From positions 1 through 64,000 of the forward strand of contig SUWB01000005.1 of the NCBI GenBank assembly GCA_015061745.1: a stretch of 64,000 bases of DNA, given 5' to 3'. The translations under genes and the position numbers were made by a program. The notes under the pieces are model-generated. The model was not told the origin of the DNA, did not search any database, and was given only the letters and a program-made list of their open reading frames with translations. The first letter of the stretch is position 1, and each line of letters starts with the position of its first letter. Origin of the DNA: Lentisphaerota bacterium. GTDB lineage: Bacteria; Verrucomicrobiota; Lentisphaeria; Victivallales; Victivallaceae. Shown here in pieces: positions 43,056-48,311 of the stretch.

Positions 43056-44156
43056 TTATGGATGCAAAGTCATATCCATATAGCCGACGGCACGGGCAAC
43101 ATATTGTATAATACAAATATCCGGAGCGATCTTTTTTATTTCTTTGCGGGATATTCTGCGGCTTTTAATATAGTAAACTTCCTGAAAATACCAGGAAAGA
43201 TATGGCATAAGAGCCTTCCCAAAAGAATCTCTGTACATCACGACCCGTCGTTTGTCTTTGGCTGCTGGATTATGTGTATATAAAATATTATCACCTATCT
43301 TTTTGCTCCTGCCTTTGTATTCAGGAGTCAACAATTTGATTTCAGGATAGTTCTCCGTAATATTAAGGGGACGCAGAGAGAGAGAAATCAAATCGCCCGG
43401 TTCTGGATTTCCGGAACATCCAGTCTTTAAATTTTCCGGTTCCGGCAAGCAGGAGGCAGAATCAAGATGTTTAATGATCTCTCTGGCACCTATATATCCG
43501 GCAACCGGCCCCCAATGAGAATCTGTCCGATAATAAAGAGCGTTACCGAAATGCTTTTTTTCCCGTAGCATTTTTTGCCGTAAATGCAACACAGGTATTT
43601 CGGGAGCATTTTTGTGCATAAAACGTGCAAACTGCAAATCAGGCATCATTGCCGAGGGGATATAACGGCGTTTCTCAGGCAAATATTCGGGATACACCTG
43701 CACCTTGTTGGGTGCAATAACGATCAACGCCTGAATATTATTACTTTGAAGAAAAGCAAAGAGTTCTTTCAGAAAATTCCGGCATCTCCTCAAATTATAT
43801 TGTCTGCTTTTCCTTCTGCCCCGGAATTGTTCTATCGGATCATCCAATTTTGGATTGCGAAGAAACAGGAATCCTTCTTTTCCGGGCAAAACTTTTCCGG
43901 GTGAATCAAGAGAGAGTATGTCTTGTATTTTTCGGCACGCTTTTATTAATACAGGCCGGAACGGGATACGGTCATTATAACATTCCTCCAACTGGGATGC
44001 GATCTTACCGTATTCAAACTTTTGCGGAAATGGCGTCAGGTTGCGTTTTTCCAACTCAGCATTATGCCGGAGCTCAAAAAAATCATCTGCCGCTTGCGGT
44101 AAAAGCAGCAGAGTGAAAAATAAGAAAATAATGGTATAATGGGGTAGATTTTTCAT
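43056..44156 (-). CDS. AlgJ/AlgX-like SGNH O-acetyltransferase
   Basis: 366 residues with an N-terminal membrane anchor or signal (HYTIIFLFFTLLLLPQAAD). SGNH-type catalytic residues: YRTDSHWGPVAGYIGARE near residue 210 (Asp-x-His) and the Ser in MYRDSFGKALMPYL near residue 310. Such proteins take acetyl groups passed across the membrane by an AlgI-type partner and add them to an exopolysaccharide. Lies 2 bases after the MBOAT gene. The coding region looks more AT-rich than its neighbours, possibly acquired. Confidence 0.82.
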   Translation of the reverse strand: MKNLPHYTIIFLFFTLLLLPQAADDFFELRHNAELEKRNLTPFPQKFEYGKIASQLEECYNDRIPFRPVLIKACRKIQDILSLDSPGKVLPGKEGFLFLRNPKLDDPIEQFRGRRKSRQYNLRRCRNFLKELFAFLQSNNIQALIVIAPNKVQVYPEYLPEKRRYIPSAMMPDLQFARFMHKNAPEIPVLHLRQKMLREKKHFGNALYYRTDSHWGPVAGYIGAREIIKHLDSASCLPEPENLKTGCSGNPEPGDLISLSLRPLNITENYPEIKLLTPEYKGRSKKIGDNILYTHNPAAKDKRRVVMYRDSFGKALMPYLSWYFQEVYYIKSRRISRKEIKKIAPDICIIQYVARAVGYMDMTLHP

Positions 44157-44158
44157 TG

Positions 44159-45559
44159 TTAAAATCTGAAGTAAATAAAAGGATTATAAGTATTCCCTGC
44201 AAGGAGTATCAATACAGCTGCGAGTAATAAGGGTTGAACGATATAATCATACCAACGATTTTTCTGCCGTCCGATTTCGTCACGGAAGCATTTGAGTCTT
44301 TGTATCGGCCCGGCGAAAAGTACTGCAATGATAATCAGTACACCTGAGGATGCATTTAAAAAATCCTGCAGCGGCAATCCGGGATTATTCGTAAAAGAGA
44401 AAAGTTTGCAGCAGTATGTATACGCATCGCTTAAATTTTCGGAACGAAAAAATACCCAGCCGATCATAACTGCAGTCAGCGTGTAAATATGGGCCGCTAT
44501 ATTGCATTTCTCCAGCCATTTTTTCAGCCATCGCCGTTCCAATATCAACAGGACGCCGTAATAAACGCCCCATACGGCAAAGTTCAGACCAGCTCCATAC
44601 CAAATACCTGTACAGATAAACACGATCATTATATTAAGATAAGTACGGCTTCCCGACACTTTGCTTCCTCCCAACGGGATATACAAATATTCCTTAAACC
44701 AGCTGGAAAGAGAAATATGCCATCTATGCCAGAAATCTTGAACGCTGCGTGCAATGTATGGTAAATTAAAATTCTCTTTGAATCTGAATCCCAACATTCT
44801 TCCCAAACCGATAGCCATATCTGAATAACCGGAAAAATCAAAATATATCTGCAGAGTGTAGCAAATGATTCCGAGCCAGGCGATCTTGCAATCGAGAGCC
44901 GTCCCAGGAACAAGAAATATATCATCAGCCAGACAAGCCATTTGATTTGCGATCAAAACCTTTTTGGCTAATCCATAAACAAATCTGCGTATCCCGCAAA
45001 CAAAGTCCTCAAGAGAAGTCTTACGATCAGTCAGCTGCTTTTCAATGTCGTGATATTTTACAATCGGACCAGCGATCAATTGTGGAAAAAGCATTACATA
45101 CAGTGAGAGATCGAGGAAATTTTTTTGCGGAACATCTTGCTTTTTGTAGGTATCAGCAAGGTAGCTGATGATCTGAAACGTAAAAAAGGATATTCCCAAC
45201 GGCAGGGCAATATTGGCGAGTCTGAAATTGAAATCAAATATACCGTCAAAAAAACACAATACCGAAGAAGTGTATTTGAAGACAAATAATATACTTAAAT
45301 TAAAAATGACGCCTAAAATAAAAAATTTCTTTCTGACACTGTCCGGAAGTTCCCAACGCAGCTTTTTGACGGCAATAAAATAGTTGACGAGCAAAGAAAA
45401 AAGCAGCAAAAAAACATTATGCGGTTCGCCCCACGCATAAAAAAACAAACTGCTCCCTAAAAGAAAGGAATTCTTCCATTTTATTTTTCTCAAGCAGCTG
45501 TTGACCAGTATAACTGCTGGCAAAAATATCTGTAAAAAAATAAACGAAGTAAAGAGCAT
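44159..45559 (-). CDS. MBOAT-family O-acyltransferase (AlgI-like)
   Basis: 466-residue multi-pass membrane protein with the AlgI layout: LLFSLLVNYFIAV, PLGISFFTFQIISYLADTYK, FDFSGYSDMAIGLGRMLGF, and FWHRWHISLSSWFKEYLYIP. In the second conserved motif, where the family has W-H-G, this protein reads CTGIWYGAGLNFAVW: the conserved His is Tyr (codon TAT). It would pass acetyl groups to the AlgJ-like partner for exopolysaccharide acetylation, but the substitution makes activity uncertain. Start ATG after CAGGAATAAGAT. Confidence 0.85.
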   Translation of the reverse strand: MLFTSFIFLQIFLPAVILVNSCLRKIKWKNSFLLGSSLFFYAWGEPHNVFLLLFSLLVNYFIAVKKLRWELPDSVRKKFFILGVIFNLSILFVFKYTSSVLCFFDGIFDFNFRLANIALPLGISFFTFQIISYLADTYKKQDVPQKNFLDLSLYVMLFPQLIAGPIVKYHDIEKQLTDRKTSLEDFVCGIRRFVYGLAKKVLIANQMACLADDIFLVPGTALDCKIAWLGIICYTLQIYFDFSGYSDMAIGLGRMLGFRFKENFNLPYIARSVQDFWHRWHISLSSWFKEYLYIPLGGSKVSGSRTYLNIMIVFICTGIWYGAGLNFAVWGVYYGVLLILERRWLKKWLEKCNIAAHIYTLTAVMIGWVFFRSENLSDAYTYCCKLFSFTNNPGLPLQDFLNASSGVLIIIAVLFAGPIQRLKCFRDEIGRQKNRWYDYIVQPLLLAAVLILLAGNTYNPFIYFRF

Positions 45560-45791
45560 ATCTTATTCCTGAAAAAACATCTCAACATCTTTTCAATAAT
45601 TTACACCTGAAGTTATTTGTTTTCAAGCCCATACTTAAAATAGCCTAAAATTTTTTTCCTTCCAAGATGTTTCCGCGTCCTCTGGGAAATCTTTTTTCCC
45701 CGAATATCAGGAAAAATATGCTATAAAAGCAATGTCAAAAAAACTCTCTATTCTCCAGGCTCGACATTCCCCGACTTTGCCGCCCCCCAAA
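45560..45791. other. Intergenic stretch between algI-like gene and repeat array
   Basis: 232 bases, A/T-rich, no ORF. Minus-strand TTGACA (near 45739) has no well-spaced -10 box, so the algI promoter is not resolved. I see no further structure that I can support. Confidence 0.4.
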
Positions 45792-46575
45792 TGGTAGTCC
45801 TGTAAGGATTCGACACCGAAGGTGAGCCGGAGCGAAGCGGAGGCAACCTCCCGCCAAAGAATCATTACAGCATTTCCAATGCTGTGAGAAGTAATTTATT
45901 TGAGTATTCCGGAGGAAAATTTATTTTACGCAGGAAAACTCAATAAATTACGGAATGATTCGTTTCACGGGATAGAGGCAAAAAAAATGGTAGTCCTGTA
46001 AGGATTCGACACCGAAGGTGAGCCGGAGCGAAGCGGAGGCAACCTCCCGCCAAAGAATCATTACAGCATTTCCAATGCTGTGAGAAGTAATTTATTTGAG
46101 TATTCCGGAGGAAAATTTATTTTACGCAGGAAAACTCAATAAATTACGGAATGATTCGTTTCACGGGATAGAGGCAAAAAAAATGGTAGTCCTGTAAGGA
46201 TTCGACACCGAAGGTGAGCCGGAGCAAAGCGGAGGCAACCTCCCGCCAAAGAATCATTACAGCATTTCTAATGCTGTGGAAAGTAATTTTGCAAAGATTT
46301 GTGCAGGAAAATTTATTTTACGGAACAAATCATTGAAAAATTACGGAATGATTCGTTTCACGGGATAGAGGCAAAAAAATGGTAGTCCTGTAAGGATTCG
46401 ACACCGAAGGTGAGCCGGAGCGAAGCGGAGGCAACCTCCCCCTAAAGAATCATTACAGCATTTCTAATGCTGTGGAAAGTAATTTTGCAAAGATTTGTGC
46501 AGGAAAATTTATTTTACGGAACAAATCATTGAAAAATTACGGAATGATTCGTTTCACGGGATAGAGGCAAAAAAA
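45792..46575 (-). repeat. tRNA-Gln-linked tandem array, four 196-bp units
   Basis: Units start at 45792, 45988, 46184 and 46380, exactly 196 bp each, ending at the tRNA gene. Each begins (plus strand) with the same 22 bases as the tRNA 3' end including CCA, followed by short hairpins (CACC/GGTG, GGAGG/CCTCC) and a three-stem core. Stems in unit 1: GAATCATT 45859-45866 with AATGATTC 45954-45961; ACAGCATT 45867-45874 with AATGCTGT 45878-45885; 45891-45905 with 45938-45951. Units 1-2 appear identical; 3-4 form a second type. No ORF. Each unit's left flank ends in GAGGCAAAAAAA, except the first, which meets unrelated sequence. Confidence 0.93.
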
Positions 46576-46649
46576 TGGTAGTCCTGTAAGGATTCGAACC
46601 TCAACAAAGTGAACCAGAATCACTTGTGCTACCGTTACACCACAGGACT
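46576..46649 (-). tRNA. tRNA-Gln (anticodon CTG)
   Basis: 74-base cloverleaf on the minus strand with encoded CCA: acceptor AGTCCTG/CAGGACT, D-stem GTG/CAC, anticodon stem AGTGA/TCACT with loop TTCTGGT (anticodon CTG), T-stem TGAGG/CCTTA with loop TTCGAAT, discriminator A. Reads glutamine CAG codons. Its last 22 bases recur in each downstream repeat unit. Confidence 0.93.
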
Positions 46650-46706
46650 ACTTAGACAACCTTCAGGCTTTCGTACTTGAAGCACTCTTGCCTTTCGTTG
46701 TTTCAT

Positions 46707-46735
46707 AATATACATCTAATTTTTTAATTTTTCAA
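46707..46735 (-). promoter_or_regulatory. Promoter of tRNA-Gln
   Basis: Minus-strand -35 TTGAAA (46730-46735), 17-bp A/T-rich spacer, -10 TATATT (46707-46712), about 57 bases before the tRNA. Confidence 0.65.
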
Positions 46736-46797
46736 GCAAACTTTTGAAAAAAAATCAAAAAAAACTTATTTTCAGTTTTTTCCGGCCAATCTCCGTC

Positions 46798-47373
46798 TCA
46801 TTTAGAGTCATTAAGAGCTTTTGTCAACGCCATTTCGAGCAGATCCATTGTCCACCTCACATCAGAATTTGCCCGATGAGCCTGCATTCCCTCTTTGCTT
46901 TCCAGCCGGAAATAGACTCTGAGACTTTGCAGTCTGTAGCTTGGGAGTCCGGGATGCACTTTTCGCATCAGTCTGACAGTATCAATGGTCTTGCCGTCCC
47001 ACAGGGGCAAACCGCAGCGTGCGAGGCTTTCCTGAAGGAATCCCAAGTCGAAGCGGGCATTGTGAGCAGCAAGTGTACTTCCTTTGGCAAATTCAAGGAA
47101 CATCTTTCCCACGGTGCTGAAGTGTGGAGCGTCGATCACCATTTCATCTGTAATGTGATGGACAGCGATCACATCTTTTGGAATGGAGCGGCCCGGATTG
47201 ACAAGGGTGTGAAATTCCTGTTCAGTACCGTCCTGATTGACCCGCAAAGCGGCAAGTTCAACGATGCGGTCCCCGACCGGACTCATTCCGGTGGTTTCCA
47301 CATCAAAGACAGTAAAAGGGCCTAATTCGTACCAGTTCAATCGGCGTATCCTTCCGGGAATTTCAGCCGCCAT
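46798..47373 (-). CDS. DnaQ-like 3'-5' exonuclease (DNA polymerase III epsilon family)
   Basis: Up to 191 residues. DEDDh motifs: FDVETTG (Exo I), AAHNARFDLGFL (Exo II), HRANSDV (Exo III). Single-domain enzyme, probably proofreading or nucleic-acid trimming; not clearly the replicative epsilon. Start uncertain: the ATG at 47373 overlaps galE by 37 bases, while TTG at 47340 overlaps the galE stop (TTGA) and is preceded by GGAAGG, which I slightly favour. Last gene of the dnaA-galE run. Confidence 0.85.
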   Translation of the reverse strand: MAAEIPGRIRRLNWYELGPFTVFDVETTGMSPVGDRIVELAALRVNQDGTEQEFHTLVNPGRSIPKDVIAVHHITDEMVIDAPHFSTVGKMFLEFAKGSTLAAHNARFDLGFLQESLARCGLPLWDGKTIDTVRLMRKVHPGLPSYRLQSLRVYFRLESKEGMQAHRANSDVRWTMDLLEMALTKALNDSK

Positions 47374-48311
47374 TTCCAGGCGGACTCAACAATGGTCTGA
47401 GCATCTTCAAATTTGGGAGCCCAGTTCAATTCCTTTCTTGCCCGGTCGCTGCAGGCAATCAGGCGAGCCGGATCCCCCGCCCGCCGGGGAGCGATTTCAA
47501 AAGGAATCTTTTTCCCGGTGACAGCTTCAGCGGCTTTGATGATTTCAAAGACAGAAAGTCCGTTTCCGGTTCCGAGATTATAGTGACCGCTTTCTTTTGC
47601 GTGCAGGGCCAGTTCGTGAGCCTGAGCCAGATCCCATACGTGGATATAATCCCTTATGCAGCTGCCGTCAGGAGTATCGTAGTCATCGCCAAAAAGCTTC
47701 AGACACTCTCTTTTTCCGGCGGCAGTCTGCAATATAATGGGGATCAGGTGGCTTTCAGGGCGGTGGTCTTCACCGTGGGCTTCAGAAGCCCCCGCAGCGT
47801 TGAAATAACGCAGTGCGGCATAGTTGATCCCGTAAATTTCGTGATACCACTTGAGCACCTTTTCAAAACAGAGCTTGGATTCGCCGTAAGGATTGATGGG
47901 GATCTGCCTGTCATATTCAGAAATAGGTATTCTTTCAGGCTGCCCAAAGGTGGCGGCGGTACTGGAAAAGACGAAGTTTTTGACCTCTCCCTGAACAGCG
48001 GCATCAGCAAGATTGATGGCAGAAGCCAAATTATTGCGGAAATACTTTGAGGGATCAGTCATAGATTCCCCCACCAGGGAAAAGGCTGCGAAATGCATTA
48101 CAGCATCAAACTTGCCTTTCCGGCAGACATCAATGATCTTTTCCCGGTCGGCAAGGTCGCCGTAAATGAATTCAGCCCGGGGATCCACCGCAGAACGGTG
48201 ACCGGTAAACAGGGCGTCGAACACTGTCACTTCATAGCCGTGTTCAAGTAAGTATTCCGTACAGACACTTCCAATGTAGCCGGCACCGCCGGTAACAAGA
48301 ACCTTAGCCAT
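47337..48311 (-). CDS. galE: UDP-glucose 4-epimerase
   Basis: 324-residue extended short-chain dehydrogenase. NAD-binding GGAGYIGS at residues 8-15, catalytic Ser-Ser-Thr (VFSSTAATFG) and Tyr-x-x-x-Lys (NPYGESK), and the sugar-site RYFNAAGA followed by HGEDHRPESHLIP. Interconverts UDP-glucose and UDP-galactose for surface glycans or galactose use. Begins 11 bases after the dnaA stop and is probably co-transcribed with it. Confidence 0.93.
   Translation of the reverse strand: MAKVLVTGGAGYIGSVCTEYLLEHGYEVTVFDALFTGHRSAVDPRAEFIYGDLADREKIIDVCRKGKFDAVMHFAAFSLVGESMTDPSKYFRNNLASAINLADAAVQGEVKNFVFSSTAATFGQPERIPISEYDRQIPINPYGESKLCFEKVLKWYHEIYGINYAALRYFNAAGASEAHGEDHRPESHLIPIILQTAAGKRECLKLFGDDYDTPDGSCIRDYIHVWDLAQAHELALHAKESGHYNLGTGNGLSVFEIIKAAEAVTGKKIPFEIAPRRAGDPARLIACSDRARKELNWAPKFEDAQTIVESAWKWRLKFPEGYAD

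Follow-up and report, generated by a model that had tools for sequence, protein, structure and literature searches.

Four tandem 196-bp units behind a Lentisphaerota tRNA-Gln gene, probably gene-less mobile elements of the tRNA T-loop, and their likeness to rtT of Escherichia coli

Why should a tRNA gene be followed by several copies of its own 3' end, each carried on a repeat of uniform length? The question is posed by a stretch of 64,000 nucleotides from an uncultured gut bacterium of the Lentisphaerota (contig SUWB01000005.1, positions 1 to 64,000; hereafter the window), in which four head-to-tail units lie directly 3' of tRNA-Gln(CTG). They had been described in a sequence-only reading as four 196-bp units downstream of this gene on the minus strand, each repeating the last 22 nucleotides of the tRNA including CCA, and the features below bear out both the coordinates and the tails, the latter in all four units.

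46576-46649 (-): tRNA-Gln(CTG), the presumed target gene, intact, with encoded CCA (ARAGORN; RF00005, 60.7 bits)
46380-46575 (-): unit 1, tRNA-proximal, 196 bp, composed of a T-run, a branched palindromic body, a two-hairpin block and the tRNA 3' end
46447-46550 (-): branched fold P1-P2-P3 of unit 1, with the P1 arms (counted by hand) at 46543-46550 and 46447-46454
46394-46436 (-): block of unit 1, GGTT + hairpin A + hairpin B + GTCGAATCC (R1, 50.4 bits, E 1.6e-11)
46184-46379 (-): unit 2, 196 bp, 98.0% identical to unit 1
46198-46240 (-): block of unit 2 (R1, 48.5 bits)
45988-46183 (-): unit 3, 196 bp, 88% identical to units 1-2
46002-46044 (-): block of unit 3 (R1, 50.4 bits)
45792-45987 (-): unit 4, distal, 196 bp, the same in sequence as unit 3
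45806-45848 (-): block of unit 4 (R1, 50.4 bits)
46380-46401, 46184-46205, 45988-46009 and 45792-45813 (-): 22-nt copies of the tRNA-Gln 3' end

The repeats had also been called exact. This holds for their length and fails for their sequence, in that the proximal pair is 87.8–88.3% identical to the distal pair; the difference lies largely in stem P2, where both arms have changed and the pairing is kept. The block of unit 1 is a T-arm-like sequence split within its loop. As had been stated, the array is free of open reading frames (none of at least 60 aa between 45559 and 46744), and an Rfam search of 44500-47500 placed the tRNA alone above its threshold. Downstream of the array lies an AT-rich algJ/algI-like pair (43056-45559; GC 41 and 39%, against 47.7% for the window). 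Apart from this low GC, nothing supports the suggestion that the array is the edge of an island reaching into algIJ.

The array is not the only one in its genome. Three units of ~197 bp stand behind tRNA-Leu(TAA) and end in the tRNA-Leu tail, and three more stand behind tRNA-Thr(CGT) (locus L066). The four tandem copies together with the array at tRNA-Leu(TAA) exclude a chance origin. Beyond this genome, a pattern of the conserved end matched 23 genomes out of 60 related ones, all but one in the same genus, and a reversed control gave no match. R1, a covariance model of the two-hairpin block built from 32 sequences that we chose from 65, matched 35 of the 60 at E<=0.01, namely 31 of 34 within the genus (270 matches in these 31) and 4 of 26 outside it; a match outside the genus (genome G040, E 6.6e-5) was tRNA-linked when its locus was inspected. 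Among named genomes the pattern occurred in 15 stretches, of which 10 belong to Lentisphaerae/Lentisphaeria MAGs, two of these labelled sheep colon and roe deer colon. The other five, in other taxa (L127, L129, L130, L133, L134), were taken as chance, with no tRNA tail after the motif by eye and no tRNA within 3 kb. Viral contigs gave no match to one exact pattern, and phages and plasmids gave partial matches at best (E 0.2 or worse).

How tightly are the units tied to tRNA genes? R1 was run at a cut-off of E<=0.05 on 96 loci (the window, L009, L066-L125 and L208-L241), which had been fetched for holding the motif, so that the counts are to be read within that choice; many of the further loci overlap with these 96. 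It found 187 blocks, 160 of them within 1.5 kb 3' of a tRNA; on a rough scale of our own, ~45 tRNAs x 1.5 kb make up ~3% of a 2.5-Mb genome. The 160 blocks belong to 85 tRNA genes with 19 anticodons, as assigned by a script that gave at least one to a neighbouring gene (L095, tRNA-Gly), and 142 lie on the strand of their tRNA. As for the remaining 27, 22 are no more than 552 nt away from the end of a contig. Another four are the far ends of gene-carrying units described below (L208, L104, L097, which begins at a contig end, and L123, whose contig has no tRNA), and the last (L116, E 0.0018) matches weakly. Units scattered without any tRNA link had been named as the finding that would speak against the original idea; the counts speak in its favour.

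The junction with the tRNA is sharp. The shared tail was measured in the 86 copies that agree with the tRNA over all of their last 14 nt: it is exactly 22 nt in 64, 15–20 nt in 20, and 44 and 57 nt in one each. With 64 of 86 at the same length, the junction falls at T55/C56 behind many different tRNAs. The His and Pro(CGG) units start at other tRNA positions, which resemble the sub-sites that islands are listed as using in the anticodon loop and the T-loop (PMC4383910). Forward units read GGTT-block-CGAATCC, where the block interrupts the loop of a sequence resembling a T-arm. After tRNA-Asn and some tRNA-Tyr genes the block is reversed, the order being GGTTCGAC-block-AATCC, and one array (L102) holds both orientations. 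At tRNA-Leu (L009, 2906-2989), the functional tRNA-Leu(TAA) and the inner copies end in ACTC and the distal copy in ACCA, which is what one would see had the proximal end come with the element; here the element seems to have replaced the encoded CCA. Variants were also seen. A unit behind tRNA-Pro(CGG) in G026 contains nearly all of the tRNA and is therefore predicted as a second tRNA-Pro (L122, 4552-4928); an array behind tRNA-Gly(GCC) goes down to 82-bp units with little beyond the block (L209, 4991-5565); and in some units another REP-like palindrome, of the CCTCC..GGAGG type, sits inside the tRNA-tail copies (L068, L085, L089, L280).

Do such units move? In genome G009, 148-nt bodies that are 97.3–100% identical stand behind three tRNA-Ser genes whose upstream surroundings are unlike. 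For a wider comparison 150 units were extracted and the 123 with bodies of 60–260 nt were compared, isoacceptors being counted as other anticodons. Bodies matched beyond their own locus in 112 of the 123. For 67 of these the best match comes from a different genome and follows a tRNA with the same anticodon. The other 45 are best matched behind a tRNA with another anticodon, 29 of them in a different genome and 16 in their own. Across amino acids the likeness reached 94.7% over 114 nt (a Gln unit of G020 and a Gly unit of G001). By eye, tRNA-Gln has no unit in its first 330 nt in several species (e.g. G005, G007, G010, G018 and G023). The tRNA-Arg(ACG) site has no unit in G017 but is occupied in G020; in the latter, both tail copies extend to 7 nt past the CCA and the far copy is broken by another palindrome. 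A flank search for an empty tRNA-Arg(CCG) site matched 3 of 34 genomes, all occupied by units. We would note that empty sites leave the direction undecided, since deletion between direct repeats could also give precise absence.

Some units carry genes. The third unit behind tRNA-Gln in L208 is ~8.4 kb long: it starts with the left half of a normal body, finishes with the right half, including P1, and the block, and has P1 arms at both ends; its far tRNA tail is truncated after CCTTACAG. The cargo comprises a pilin-like protein, a GntR/LacI-like regulator and an FAD oxidoreductase, along with GH42 matches that are weak and fall below the Pfam cut-offs. In L104 a C5 methyltransferase (4.4e-47) and a type II restriction enzyme (1.6e-33) lie between tRNA-Arg(TCT) and a block, with no normal body visible. 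A GH123 gene (1.4e-81) lies between two blocks in L097, an AAA-ATPase/PDDEXK_9 gene precedes a block with a tRNA-Gln tail in L123, where the unit's left end is off the contig, and a partial ORF precedes a block at a contig end in L235. Judged from these five, the small units look like emptied versions of gene-carrying ones.

We therefore regard the array in the window, with a probability of roughly 0.7, as a tandem set of four gene-less mobile elements, non-autonomous and inserting at tRNA T-loops, which are mobilized in trans, with a tyrosine integrase as the likeliest agent. This favours the first option of the sequence-only reading, in which a tiny element inserted at the tRNA site-specifically and more than once. 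What was observed is the anatomy, the matched tails, the sharp junction, the 19 anticodons, the shared bodies, the empty and filled sites and the cargo. The process might run as follows. Movement would be by site-specific recombination at the T-loop; the element would come with a copy of the 3' end that keeps the tRNA gene intact, and the original end would be pushed outward and left at the element's far side. The two-hairpin block and P1, as a terminal inverted repeat, would be recognition sites on folded or palindromic DNA, for an enzyme that acts in trans and would most likely be a tyrosine integrase of the kind found on tRNA islands. Tandem copies may come from several insertions in turn, each into the restored site, or from unequal recombination; unequal crossing-over could by itself account for their being tandem. 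The interrupted far tail in G020 and the truncated one in L208 count against the mobile-element reading.

The folding of the units bears on the first alternative, namely that the array is transcribed as a trailer RNA, or serves the tRNA operon as tandem terminators, and is maintained for an RNA function, with the tail copies as processing or decoy sites. An RNA function has been proposed for the rtT RNA of E. coli, which is annotated as an sRNA, and the Lentisphaerota units, too, lie 3' of the tRNA and usually on its strand. They also fold strongly: the folding z-score is below -3 in 101 of 119 distinct bodies of 60–260 nt (40 shuffles each; mean -5.5, eight above -1), a single stem, P1, encloses at least two branches in 93 of 107 bodies of 100–200 nt, and many P2 hairpins look terminator-like by eye. 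The nature of the pairs, however, points to a constraint at the level of DNA, not RNA. G-T pairs make up 196 of 5269 predicted pairs (3.7%) on the tRNA strand and 189 of 5246 (3.6%) on the other, against 113 of 1269 (8.9%) in 52 tRNAs and 565 of 4147 (13.6%) in shuffles; being rare, and equally so on both strands, they are read as a sign that selection acts on DNA that is folded or palindromic. Of the 252 cells in the block alignment, 21 are changed on both sides, none on one side and 17 are unpaired, although one of five measures, the number of further pair types, was not above shuffles. A trailer RNA would also sit uneasily with the reversed blocks behind Asn and some Tyr tRNAs, with a unit of ~8.4 kb with genes and with the empty sites. 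We consider it improbable.

If the units are mobile, what moves them? No recombinase was found inside any of the units read, and tyrosine recombinases are present in 44 of 45 genomes. Among them, a 440-aa family has a same-strand tRNA or tmRNA upstream in 25 of 30 loci fetched (L293-L322), commonly 105–170 nt off. It occurs across the order with tRNAs of many kinds, with nine matches in the single-contig genome G036, and in G008 and G020 it lies directly after a unit, not inside. At E<=1e-30 it was not found in G000, G006, G011 and G016, which have 10–25 blocks. Its link to block number is weak: the one-sided p is 0.040 over 34 genomes, 0.0043 with two short matches taken as absent and 0.12 among genomes at least 85% complete, and completeness itself goes with block number (rho 0.47). 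A readable far end with a far tRNA fragment was obtained for 1 of 20 longer loci of this family (G052, tRNA-Lys, 18.6 kb), and by eye that end has no block.

Mobilization might instead be due to Cas1 (casposon-like), Y1/REP, Y2/IS91 or serine recombinases, and not to a tyrosine integrase. Casposons are known at tRNA 3' ends with target duplications, and by eye the block resembles paired REP hairpins. Against this, Cas1 is found in 12 of 34 genomes and was not found in the array-rich drafts G001, G006, G011, G016, G017, G021 and G029; Y1 is found in 24 of 45 and not in the drafts G011, G014 and G020; serine recombinases are found in 12 of 34 and not in the drafts G000, G014, G016, G021 and G033; and Y2 gave 0 of 34 in a search whose control gave no signal either. 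In addition, the duplication varies from 15 to 57 nt, unlike a fixed target duplication. As drivers, none of Y1, Cas1, serine recombinase and the 440-aa tyrosine recombinase tracks the arrays. Y1, Cas1 and serine recombinases fit them worse than the 440-aa family does, and this alternative appears unlikely. Two further models were considered and dropped, the IS110 bridge-RNA idea, which the 22-nt tRNA duplication does not fit, and the rolling-circle idea with a GTTC target, for which Y2 was the enzyme sought in the search just described.

Is there a counterpart elsewhere? The sequence-only reading pointed to the rtT repeats of E. coli, and as a statement about anatomy the comparison holds, down to the same T-loop split. 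E. coli K-12 has three 178-bp rtT units (RF00391) behind tyrV and one in the tyrT-tyrV spacer, each built as AAGGTTCG-hairpins-AATCC...CCA, which is the split of the reverse type. In both systems units of ~180–200 bp lie directly 3' of a tRNA, each inspected unit ends in its tRNA 3' end, and copy number and presence vary from strain to strain; in rtT, as in the reverse-type (Asn, Tyr) units of Lentisphaerota, a T-arm-like GGTTCG has its loop split by hairpins before AATCC. Unlike the window units, which hold no ORF of 60 aa, K-12 rtT contains the annotated small gene tpr. The two also differ in sequence: the RtT covariance model, searched against 44500-47500 of the window and five Lentisphaerota loci, matched in E. 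coli only, and the best R1 match in 1.4 kb of K-12 covers 13 nt at E 0.008 (a match to the full model has E 0.016), so that no significant sequence or covariance match joins them. The comparison suggests a shared anatomy, short of proven common descent, and rtT may work like the reverse-oriented form of the Lentisphaerota units.

Matches to rtT occur in 4695 of 5426 E. coli genomes, at 1–14 places per positive genome (median 3; the tRNA was checked for part of the places). Eighteen places are on records labelled E. coli plasmids. Two cases concern the gain or loss of units. First, strain MS8320 is without the spacer unit; aligned to K-12, it shows a 175-nt gap between GGTTCG and AATCC of tRNA-Tyr, whose placement is arbitrary within the repeated tail, and either gain or deletion between 19-nt direct repeats explains its state. 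Second, CKJ_1000_3.1 has an RtT unit behind a tRNA-Pro gene, which we take to be proK, and this unit ends in the tRNA-Pro tail. At least 80% of this stretch is present in 2678 of the 5426 genomes; in two genomes without it that were inspected, what comes after tRNA-Pro is an incomplete copy that lacks the block and the tail. A side observation concerns self-complementarity: rtT units behind tRNA-Tyr and tRNA-Pro (L353, L356) hold a stretch complementary to the 3' part of their own tRNA (GGGGAAGGAT, GAGGAT), and by eye the reverse-type Tyr units of the Lentisphaerota genus do similarly.

The remaining alternative, that a tRNA tail with its flank was duplicated once by chance and then multiplied by slippage or unequal crossing-over with nothing mobile, would suit the identity of units 3 and 4 and the range of rtT places per genome and is very doubtful in view of the same block and related bodies behind 19 anticodons, with tails to match, and of one T-loop base serving as the junction in 64 of 86 copies.

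How do the units, read as mobile elements, compare with known ones? Genomic islands with tyrosine integrases, as described in the Islander survey (PMC4383910), restore the tRNA by an element-borne 3' end, leave a displaced far fragment, use T-loop and anticodon-loop sub-sites and form tandem arrays, and the units share all four traits. They agree with the survey's definition in having an intact tDNA and, downstream of it and oriented alike, a displaced fragment of its 3' end, and depart from it in two respects. First, most are ~0.2 kb and carry neither integrase nor gene, the window array having no ORF of 60 aa. Second, the size of at least 2 kb is reached by the cargo units L097, L104 and L208 alone (~2 to 8.4 kb). 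The survey rejects candidates that lack an integrase ORF or are below 2 kb, so that a class of T-loop units would be invisible to it.

MITEs and CALIN arrays serve as a model for using another element's enzyme in trans (PMC11389934). Like these and other hitchers, the units are short and non-autonomous, have inverted-repeat ends, look internally deleted and occasionally carry cargo. In particular, terminal inverted repeats surround a short non-coding body in the 93 of 107 bodies enclosed by P1 and in the 8.4-kb unit, with the block and tRNA tail outside P1 on the right side. The units differ in being tRNA-linked with a tRNA tail, and no partner transposase and no autonomous partner with the same ends was seen in the loci read or in the exact-pattern scan of viral contigs. 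Casposons, which have Cas1, compare poorly, given its distribution above.

tRNA genes are classic landing sites of genomic islands, and the principle, mobile DNA at tRNA ends, is ordinary. The form is unusual: 0.2-kb, integrase-less, palindromic, tandem, at many tRNAs, sometimes with cargo, and with the anatomy of rtT. More tentatively, and with some doubt on our part, the Lentisphaerota units and rtT might be one old class of T-loop cassettes that crosses phyla, consisting of folded DNA sites that imitate a T-arm whose loop holds at least two hairpins, recombine into the T-loop of almost any tRNA in either orientation with a matching tail, are usually empty and can enclose genes, e.g. for restriction-modification. 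tRNA genes would then be the landing platform of an integron-like cassette system. To our knowledge rtT has no accepted origin, and among the matches listed in an open-access search there was no paper on the Lentisphaerota arrays or on the origin of rtT. The reading proposed here gives rtT a concrete origin hypothesis, testable in E. coli K-12, and places defence genes between the same ends as gene-less repeats.
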